From: Nitrososphaerota archaeon
Lineage (GTDB): Archaea > Thermoproteota > Nitrososphaeria > Nitrososphaerales > Gagatemarchaeaceae
Assembly: GCA_029785195.1 (NCBI GenBank)
Contig: JAFMAD010000002.1
Coordinates: 1 to 64,000, forward strand
DNA length: 64,000 nt
Direction of reading: 5' to 3'
A program made the translations under genes and the position numbers. Within the stretch, counting starts at the first letter, position 1; each line of letters opens with the position of its first letter. This document shows positions 51,107-59,031 of this stretch, piece after piece. Below the pieces are notes generated by a model that saw nothing but the letters and a program-made list of their open reading frames with translations, had not been told where the DNA came from and did not search any database.

Positions 51107-51901
51107 ATGAGATTCGTCGAACCAAAGGTGTACATGATAGGTGAGACGAAGCTTGACCTCGGTCAGACGAGACTCATGCTGAGGGCCCTTGGAGGAAGAA
51201 CTGCACTTGAGTGGATGTCAAGGACCTCTCCGAACTCGCGGTCCGAGGGGGAATTGCTGACGGAGATTGCAGGACGAATCTGTTACAAGAGCTTCGGGGT
51301 CGGTCTTAACCCCAACGTTAAGAAGATACGCACGAGCTCCAAAGAATACATACAGAATACTCTTTCAAAAGGCGACGGCTCAATCTTTGAGCATGCTAGC
51401 TGCACATTCGCCTTCATAGACGTGAGCAGAGTATTCACACACGAACTCGTAAGGCATAGGGTGGGAGTTGCAATAAGTCAGGAGTCATTGAGATATGTGA
51501 GACCGACCGACCTCGCCCTCTGGATTCCACCGGAACTCGCTGAAAGGAAGATGGAGTTCAAGGCAATAGTCGAACGGATGGAAGAGGACTACAAGAGCCT
51601 CGAAAACGACTATGATTGGGACAGCATGAACTTCGACGAGAAGAAGCGTGTCACGTCAGCTCTCAGGCGTATCGCACCCGACGGTATGGCCACGTCAATA
51701 ATATGGACCGCTAACCATCGCACAATACGGCATGTAATCACGATGCGTACGGCAGAATCCGCGGAGGTTGAGATACGGTACATCTTTGATAAGGTGGCAC
51801 GAGTTATGAAGAGAAAATTTCCGCTAATCTATGGAGACTTCCAGCACACGAAGTTACCTGACGGAACGTGGAGCTGGCGCCCAAAGTTTGTTAAAGCATA
51901 G
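51107..51901 (+). CDS. thyX: flavin-dependent thymidylate synthase ThyX
   Basis: Converts dUMP to dTMP using FAD, NADPH and methylene-tetrahydrofolate. The signature is ELVRHRVGVAISQESLRYVR, close to RHRxxSxxxxSxRY; the N-terminal ISxSFG region appears as ICYKSFGVGLNP. The C-terminal AESAEVEIRYIF contributes to the active site. Length 264 aa. No ThyA is visible. The C1 unit would come from glyA/gcvT; Tmk at 33.4 kb takes the product onward. Confidence 0.94.
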   Translation: MRFVEPKVYMIGETKLDLGQTRLMLRALGGRTALEWMSRTSPNSRSEGELLTEIAGRICYKSFGVGLNPNVKKIRTSSKEYIQNTLSKGDGSIFEHASCTFAFIDVSRVFTHELVRHRVGVAISQESLRYVRPTDLALWIPPELAERKMEFKAIVERMEEDYKSLENDYDWDSMNFDEKKRVTSALRRIAPDGMATSIIWTANHRTIRHVITMRTAESAEVEIRYIFDKVARVMKRKFPLIYGDFQHTKLPDGTWSWRPKFVKA

Positions 51902-51950
51902 TCCGGTTGTCATGCCAAAGAATAAGAGTGCACGACTGACTAGGTCCTTC

Positions 51951-52116
51951 GCCGGGGTGGCGGAGTCTGGCTAACGCGCGGGCAATTCGCTCGTCTAGGA
52001 AAAGCGAATCCGCAACTCGAGATCGACGACCAGTCAGCCCGTGACCCTTGGGTCATGTGGGTTCAAAGCTCGCAGGGATCCTCTGGGTACCTCGAGTGGA
52101 AGTCCCACCCCCGGCG
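51951..52116 (+). tRNA. tRNA-Ser(CGA) with three inferred introns
   Basis: Acceptor gccgggg / ccccggc with discriminator G (serine type), a D-arm, and a long variable arm (tgaccc-tt-gggtca, 52042-52055). The anticodon stem cgggc (51979-51983) pairs with gcccg (52037-52041). Between them only 52016-52022, ctCGAga, makes a proper 7-nt loop, leaving introns of 32 nt (51984-52015) and 14 nt (52023-52036). The T-stem gtggg (52057-52061) and cccac (52104-52108) enclose 42 nt instead of 7, giving a 35-nt T-loop intron (about 52068-52102). Intron removal gives an 85-nt tRNA. Intron 1 holds a 7-bp hairpin attcgct/agcgaat. Exact splice points could shift by a base or two. Confidence 0.85.
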
Positions 52117-52128
52117 CTTAGCTTAGAC

Positions 52129-52488
52129 TCATGCCGTCTTGAAGGACTCGCCACAACCACATGTCGATACAGCGTTCGGATTCTTTACCACGAAACCTCC
52201 ACCCATCAGCTTGTCTGATTGGAAGTCAATCACTGAACCAGCGATGAACGGCATACTCGACTTGTCTACAATCAACTTGGCGCCATGTTGCACTATGACA
52301 TAATCATCTTCGCTAGACTTGTCCTCCGGGACCATACCATAAGATAGACCGGAACAGCCTCCCGCCGAAACGAAGACGCGTAGTCCAGCACCAGGCTTCC
52401 CCTGCTTTTCCAGATATAGGATCAGTTCATGCGCAGCCTGCTCGCTTATCTCGACGACCGGCTTGATTTCTTTGACTTCCTGAGACAT
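52129..52488 (-). CDS. iron-sulfur cluster carrier, HesB/IscA/ErpA family
   Basis: A-type Fe-S carrier of 119 aa. The three cluster cysteines are in VFVSAGGCSGLSYGM and the C-terminal STCGCGESF. AAHELILYLEK at the N-terminus and FQSDKLMGGGFVVKNPNA are family segments. A single gene with no suf/isc partners nearby. Confidence 0.93.
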   Translation of the reverse strand: MSQEVKEIKPVVEISEQAAHELILYLEKQGKPGAGLRVFVSAGGCSGLSYGMVPEDKSSEDDYVIVQHGAKLIVDKSSMPFIAGSVIDFQSDKLMGGGFVVKNPNAVSTCGCGESFKTA

Positions 52489-55103: not shown

Positions 55104-55193
55104 AGCCTCGGCCGGGATTTGATCCCGGGACCCCTGCCTGTTTGGATTCTTGGTTTACCAAGGCAGTGCTCTACCAGGCTGAGCTACCGAGGC
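55104..55193 (-). tRNA. tRNA-Thr(GGT) with canonical 37/38 intron
   Basis: Acceptor gcctcgg/ccgaggc, anticodon stem ctgcc/ggcag, loop ttGGTa|a. A 16-nt intron (55140-55155) follows position 37; it begins aacca, which can pair with the anticodon. T-arm ccggg-atcaaat-cccgg, discriminator U, as expected for archaeal threonine tRNAs. Mature length 74 nt. It is followed on the same strand by tRNA-Leu. Confidence 0.9.
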
Positions 55194-58517: not shown

Positions 58518-58937
58518 ATGCCAGTCCTAACAAGAGGCGAACTTCTCTCGAGATACGCTGACCGTTCGAGCTCGAAGTATGTAGAGAGAGCTGTAGACGC
58601 CGTGCTGCAAGGTCGCGTGAAGGAACACGTATTCCTTCCGAGCAACCATGCCGTCTATACGGTCGTCGGAAGGAATGGAGACGAATTCATCGACTCAGGG
58701 CTGCCCTTCTGTTCGTGTAGTCACTTCTTCTTCAGCGTCATGAGAGGCAAGAGTAAGACGTGCTATCATCTACTCGCTAACTCGATCGCCAGCGAGTGGA
58801 ACTTAGCGACCAGAACGGAATTCCATGATGAAGAATTCCCGTACTTCCTGAAGCTCATCGCGTCTGACCTTCTAGCGCGCCAAGGGGACAAAGAAGATAA
58901 GGACAATAGCGAGCCGTCTGATACTGGGCCTCGGTAG
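58518..58937 (+). CDS. SWIM zinc-finger protein (139 aa)
   Basis: The central SWIM motif is CSCSHFFFSVMRGKSKTCYHLL (CxC...CxH; about residues 65-86). The N-terminal 55 residues form a small alpha-beta region (VERAVDAVLQGRVKEHVFLPSNHAVYTVVGRNGDEF), and the C-terminal 25 residues are acidic and disordered. Archaeal and eukaryotic SWIM proteins of this size include relatives of the recombination mediator Sws1. Its position directly after the Y-family polymerase supports a repair role. The last 10 bp, including the stop, lie inside tRNA-Thr(TGT). Confidence 0.8.
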   Translation: MPVLTRGELLSRYADRSSSKYVERAVDAVLQGRVKEHVFLPSNHAVYTVVGRNGDEFIDSGLPFCSCSHFFFSVMRGKSKTCYHLLANSIASEWNLATRTEFHDEEFPYFLKLIASDLLARQGDKEDKDNSEPSDTGPR

Positions 58938-59027
58938 CTCAGTGAAAGGCGCGGCGCCTTTCGAGTAACCTGGTAGAGCACCTGCCTTGTAAGCAGGTGG
59001 TCGAGGGTCCAAATCCCTCCCGAGGCT
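58928..59027 (+). tRNA. tRNA-Thr(TGT) with D-loop intron
   Basis: Acceptor gcctcgg/ccgaggc, anticodon stem acctgc/gcaggt with loop ctTGTaa, T-arm gaggg-tccaaat-ccctc, discriminator U. The D-arm is interrupted: gctcag is followed by 26 extra nt (58943-58968) containing a 7-bp hairpin gaaaggc/gcctttc, after which cctggtagagc completes the arm. Removing these gives a normal 74-nt tRNA. The flanking D-arm matches tRNA-Thr(GGT) at 55.1 kb base for base, which strongly supports the intron. It starts within the last codons of the SWIM gene. Confidence 0.9.
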
Positions 59028-59031
59028 CTTC

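Follow-up and report, generated by a model that had tools for sequence, protein, structure and literature searches.

Positions 51951-52116 on the forward strand of an archaeal contig were proposed, in a sequence-only reading of a 64,000-nucleotide stretch (the window, meaning the whole stretch of DNA that was analysed), to encode a tRNA-Ser(CGA) interrupted at three places, among them the T-loop. The question raised by this locus is whether these 166 bp represent a working tRNA gene, with its transcript assembled from four exons, or a disrupted remnant, and, if the gene works, where its introns lie and in which order they would have to be removed.

Gene structure and mature product

Exons 1-4 of tRNA-Ser(CGA) were read from the sequence, separated by three introns (Table 1). 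A split or permuted tRNA was rejected, as every exon is collinear inside the 166 bp. No tRNA was called on the unspliced precursor with ARAGORN or Rfam RF00005, nor with ARAGORN on the gene with introns 1 and 2 alone removed. Removal of all three introns restored a full cloverleaf, as expected for archaeal bulge-helix-bulge (BHB) introns, with ARAGORN calling a class II tRNA-Ser(CGA) of 85 nt that carries the CGA anticodon, a long variable arm and the discriminator base G73; the earlier claim that such a product appears on excision of 32, 14 and 35 nt was thus borne out, the call being obtained only after removal. The T-loop resulting from excision of intron 3 reads UUCAAAU.

The tRNA is situated 49 nt 3' of a gene that we take to be thyX-like (51107-51901) and is followed directly, on the opposite strand, by a presumed IscA/HesB-like gene (52129-52488), both names deriving from a reading of the translations.

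Table 1. Features of the tRNA-Ser(CGA) locus (window coordinates; tRNA positions in standard numbering)
Feature	Coordinates	Strand	Remarks
Promoter-like BRE/TATA box CCAAAGAATAAG	51915..51926	+	About 25-36 nt upstream of tRNA 5' end; counterpart in relatives AAAGAAATAATAG
Exon 1, positions 1-31 (5' strand of acceptor stem, D-arm, 5' side of anticodon stem)	51951..51983	+	
Intron 1, 32 nt, position 31/32	51984..52015	+	Strict BHB, covariation
Micro-exon CTCGAG, 6 nt, positions 32-37	52016..52021	+	Anticodon CGA at 52018-52020
Intron 2, 14 nt, canonical position 37/38	52022..52035	+	Relaxed BHB
Exon 3, positions 38-59 (anticodon stem 3' half, long variable arm, 5' side of T-stem, most of T-loop)	52036..52067	+	
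Intron 3, 35 nt, T-loop position 59/60	52068..52102	+	Strict BHB
Exon 4, positions 60-73	52103..52116	+	Discriminator G73; CCA not encoded

Bulge-helix-bulge motifs at the junctions

A BHB was defined as two 3-nt bulges, each cut after the second base, with a central helix of 4 bp between them. Such a motif was found at every junction, strict for introns 1 and 3 and relaxed for intron 2 (three of four central pairs), and not the lack of any compatible fold that would have spoken against an interrupted gene.

Intron 1 possesses the bulges GC^A and AA^C (the caret marking the cut), a central helix GCGG/CCGC, with GCGG at tRNA positions 26-29, and a 7-bp inner helix AUUCGCU/AGCGAAU. When the local 60 nt were folded, the minimum-energy structure contained the same base pairs. 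For intron 3 the outer helix is the T-stem itself (GUGGG/CCCAC), with bulges AA^G and AG^U, central helix UUCA/UGGA and inner helix CUCG/CGAG. Placement of this intron at 56/57 to 58/59 was rejected, as the BHB is formed only at 59/60; the T-loop intron recognised by the sequence-only reading therefore stands, with its position now fixed. With a strict BHB taken as four of four central pairs and an inner helix of at least 4 bp, shuffled sequences with the junctions held fixed formed one by chance in 27 of 200,000 cases for intron 1 (0.0135%) and in 120 of 200,000 for intron 3 (0.06%). Unconstrained RNAfold recovered the cloverleaf for neither the precursor nor the mature RNA, the global minimum thus being uninformative.

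At 37/38, intron 2 forms an outer helix CGGGC/GCCCG, bulges AG^A and UC^A, and an inner helix of 2 bp, with its central helix CUCG/CCAG containing one C-C mismatch, constant in occurrence, at position 34. The register of this intron is ambiguous by one base due to an A repeated at both ends, and excision at 37/38 or 38/39 gives an identical product. The latter junction had been proposed earlier together with 31/32; the position of intron 1 was upheld, and intron 2 is best read from its base pairing as lying at the canonical 37/38. As the BHB favours this site, the exon carrying the anticodon comprises 6 nt instead of the 7 nt originally described.

A different register in the anticodon region, such as 38/39 or a single composite excision, or a departure of intron 2 ahead of intron 1, would be compatible with the identical product of the two registers and with the relaxed BHB of intron 2. 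However, composite excision would remove the anticodon, a cut at 38/39 was read as giving a worse central helix and costing one outer-helix pair, and intron 2 lacks its 3-nt bulge as long as intron 1 is present. We regard these alternatives together as improbable.

Proposed order of splicing

With intron 2 placed at 37/38, its outer BHB helix is the anticodon stem. The central helix of intron 1 makes use of positions 27-29, which pair with positions 41-43 in the mature anticodon stem. As this 5' strand is shared, the BHBs of introns 1 and 2 cannot coexist, and intron 1 would accordingly have to precede intron 2: its removal would allow the anticodon stem to form and to present the BHB of intron 2. 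Intron 3, with a BHB built on the T-stem, could be removed at any time. In the proposed pathway the transcript would be cut at the bulges by a splicing endonuclease of the (alpha-beta)2 type, and an archaeal tRNA ligase, for example RtcB, would join the exons. Computed precursor energies were nearly equal for the state with the intron 1 BHB and that with the anticodon stem (-47.8 and -47.1 kcal/mol, respectively), so the proposed order rests on geometry. Departure of one intron before the BHB of the next can form is described for other archaeal tRNAs with closely spaced introns (PMC8450103).

Possible rather than probable, in our estimate, is a broader reading in which the Ser tRNAs of this thaumarchaeal family would constitute an intron hot spot, with recurring sites (29/30-31/32, 37/38 and 59/60) spreading between isoacceptors, and in which intron 1 would act as an order switch, preventing formation of the anticodon stem for as long as the intron remains in the transcript.

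Conservation of the layout among homologues

Twenty-eight tRNA-Ser(CGA) genes of such layout were identified in Thaumarchaeota, comprising the window gene, 21 genes from a DNA search of 60 relatives (in 20 genomes) and six found with a covariance model in 300 genomes of the order. Introns 1 and 2 are present in all 28, with intron 3 shared by 11; three independent BHB introns within one functional-looking gene were accordingly found for the window gene and 10 homologues. Lengths range from 19 to 38 nt for intron 1 and from 14 to 17 nt for intron 2 (28 genes), and from 20 to 55 nt for intron 3 (11 genes). The arrangement put forward in the sequence-only reading, with two introns flanking the anticodon loop and one in the T-loop, is thus supported by a BHB at each junction and by 27 other genes sharing the layout. 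Its description of an anticodon exon between two introns as unusual was overstated for this lineage, where 28 of 28 Ser(CGA) genes found have the layout; the same or related intron layouts also occur in other Ser tRNAs of the order.

The micro-exon is kept as CTCGAR in every gene, and the central helix GCGG/CCGC of intron 1 is fully paired in 27 of the 28. For the inner helix of intron 1, two-sided changes were observed at all seven pairs in an alignment of 22 sequences, in which the covariation score was reached by none of 500 shuffles and lay far above all slid controls. The central helix of intron 3 is complete (4/4 pairs) in all 11 carriers, with an A-U to G-C swap at position 57 in two of them (L004 and L108). 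Upstream, the genes have in common an A/T box about 26-36 nt ahead of the tRNA, with positions -28 to -26 being A or T in 28 of 28 regions. An archaeal TATA box would be expected at this distance, provided that the transcript begins close to the tRNA 5' end. These patterns indicate that the layout is conserved across the thaumarchaeal family, with intron sequences that drift by way of compensatory changes.

The lack of a call by standard gene finders might be expected of a decayed tRNA pseudogene carrying random insertions. However, 28 genes from many species retain the exons, the anticodon, the promoter box and the BHB pairs, with introns that change in a compensatory manner. Furthermore, two complete genomes (G004 and G015) encode one Ser(CGA) gene each, of the two-intron type, and an intronless Ser(CGA) copy that could serve as an intact replacement was not found in either. 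A pseudogene origin is very unlikely on this evidence. As far as sequence goes, the tRNA-Ser(CGA) gene is real and functional-looking, and the locus is with high probability a working gene interrupted by three BHB introns.

Among genomes of the genus in which the window's metagenome-assembled genome (MAG) is classed (g1), Ser(CGA) was not found in six (G001, G012, G022, G024, G029 and G011; 79-95% complete) using two patterns allowing introns of up to 30 nt and no mismatch; the gene may be lost in these or only more disrupted.

When the first six bases of the T-loop intron are compared with the six that open the 3' exon (TCCCAY), the Ser(CGA) genes with three introns show two to five identical positions, with five in 4 of 11. 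This likeness might be a trace of integration at the T-loop, and is suggestive only, given the relatedness of the sequences and the constraint that the helix places on them. The frequent resemblance of these intron starts to the 3' exon (TCCC), as if left by target duplication, is also what an inserted mobile element would explain. Such an element, or a self-splicing intron, in place of BHB introns is nevertheless hardly credible, since a length of 14-55 nt could not accommodate a group I or II ribozyme, Rfam gave no group I or II match at the locus, and a BHB is found at every junction.

Splicing endonuclease

Splicing endonucleases of the (alpha-beta)2 type are associated with broad specificity. 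Two EndA paralogues, alpha and beta, were identified in well-assembled relatives. EndA alpha retains the catalytic His motif HAPY and aligns with Aeropyrum pernix EndA (3p1z_B) at 3.7e-46, whereas EndA beta is without the catalytic histidine. By sequence, the pair is of the (alpha-beta)2 type, and such relatives thus encode an enzyme of a class ((alpha-beta)2 or epsilon2) able to cut noncanonical and relaxed sites. A Lys of EndA alpha (residue number counted by hand) aligns with A. pernix Lys44 of the Crenarchaea-specific loop (CSL), the role of which has been described previously (PMC6379350, PMC12397907). The MAG containing the window has a single PF01974 match, an alpha copy on contig C11; the GC content of this contig is clearly higher, and the copy may not be from the window's organism.

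Host lineage and composition of the MAG

A pattern scan of named genomes gave 22 matching stretches, two of them from one genome, of which 20 were labelled Nitrososphaerales, Thaumarchaeota or "archaeon", one Bathyarchaeota and one "bacterium". Several matching genomes bear SubAcS or AcS isolate names, series belonging to Gagatemarchaeaceae, a family of group I.1c, and to neighbouring lineages (PMC10640624), and from these names the carriers of the gene family are probably group I.1c (Gagatemarchaeaceae). The two main genera are predicted to grow best at about 36-40 C (PMC10640624), so the layout is not a hyperthermophile trait in this family. Introns are not mentioned in the main text of that study.

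The GC content of the window is 50.9%, compared to about 64% for two loci on contig C11 of the same MAG (G000). Its ThyX shares 70% and 69% identity with G035 and G051, respectively, and about 30% with g1 genomes; the tRNA exons likewise match G035, G051, G031, G032 and genus g7, and not g1. G000 is probably a chimeric bin, with the window's contig (C22) appearing to derive from another lineage than C11. The tRNA finding is unaffected by this, as the contig is 117 kb long and homologues exist elsewhere.

Several contigs of G000 (C58, C20, C1, C3, C17, C18 and C68) have an end lying no more than a few hundred bases from a tRNA gene, a pattern that could arise from strain variation or from integration at such genes.

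Relation to known multi-intron tRNAs

Reviews describe archaeal tRNAs with up to three introns, mainly from Thermoproteales, and three introns each have been reported for pre-tRNA-Glu(UUC) of Pyrobaculum calidifontis and pre-tRNA-Pro(UGG) of P. islandicum (PMC4390854). Like the window gene, these tRNAs mix canonical and noncanonical positions among up to three BHB introns, and some need sequential removal (PMC8450103). They differ in belonging to hyperthermophilic Crenarchaeota, whereas the window gene is from a soil and groundwater lineage of Thaumarchaeota with the mesophilic growth predicted above (PMC10640624), and in that the family described here consists of Ser isoacceptors with a 6-nt anticodon exon between two introns.

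Closer in lineage, 107 noncanonical tRNA introns were counted in the thaumarchaeal genomes assessed with tRNAscan-SE 2.0, and some Crenarchaeota and Thaumarchaeota were noted to possess tRNA genes with multiple noncanonical introns (PMC8450103). These are likewise BHB introns at noncanonical positions, in the same phylum in its older sense; the passages on them mention neither group I.1c nor the present three-intron layout. Caldiarchaeum subterraneum, a relative of Thaumarchaeota, also has several introns per tRNA, including in the T-arm, with gain by mobile elements proposed (PMC3293823); it differs in isoacceptors and positions, and population heterogeneity was shown there (PMC3293823). No description of a three-intron Ser(CGA) layout in Gagatemarchaeaceae was found in the open-access literature, an absence that is not proof of absence elsewhere. 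It is well supported that the window gene extends the known archaeal multi-intron tRNAs (up to three introns) and does not constitute a new habit.

Three-intron tRNAs are accordingly not confined to hyperthermophilic Crenarchaeota: an important tRNA is encoded as four separate exons in many species of a widespread lineage of soil archaea with predicted mesophilic growth. The existence of close two-intron and three-intron homologues would allow intron gains to be dated and their origin, by transposition or T-loop integration, to be tested.

Introns in other tRNA genes

A pattern search for T-loop introns revealed further genes with three introns, a T-loop intron at 59/60 among them: G027 has such a gene for Ser(GGA) (L149), and G013 and G001 have them for Ser(GCU) (L150, L151). 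With three introns removed from each, these were called tRNA-Ser(GGA) and tRNA-Ser(GCU). A T-loop-intron-like match in G032 (L148) could be linked to no particular tRNA. Elsewhere in the order, two introns interrupt several Ser genes of other families, and in one family tRNA-Ser(UGA) (L123-L125), read by eye, appears to possess three (in the D-arm, near 29/30 and at 37/38). In intron mode, ARAGORN called Ser(GCU) genes of relatives as Ala, a warning that tRNA annotation can miss or mislabel such genes.

Two further interrupted tRNA genes were observed in the window. A tRNA-Thr(UGU) at 58928-59028 contains a 26-nt D-loop intron (58943-58968, position about 15/16), for which a strict BHB (GCUC/GAGU) with a 7-bp inner helix was read; unspliced, it was called by ARAGORN only with a wrong 5' end, and the spliced form was called Thr(UGU). 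On the minus strand, a tRNA-Thr with anticodon GGU (55104-55193) carries a short intron at the canonical site.
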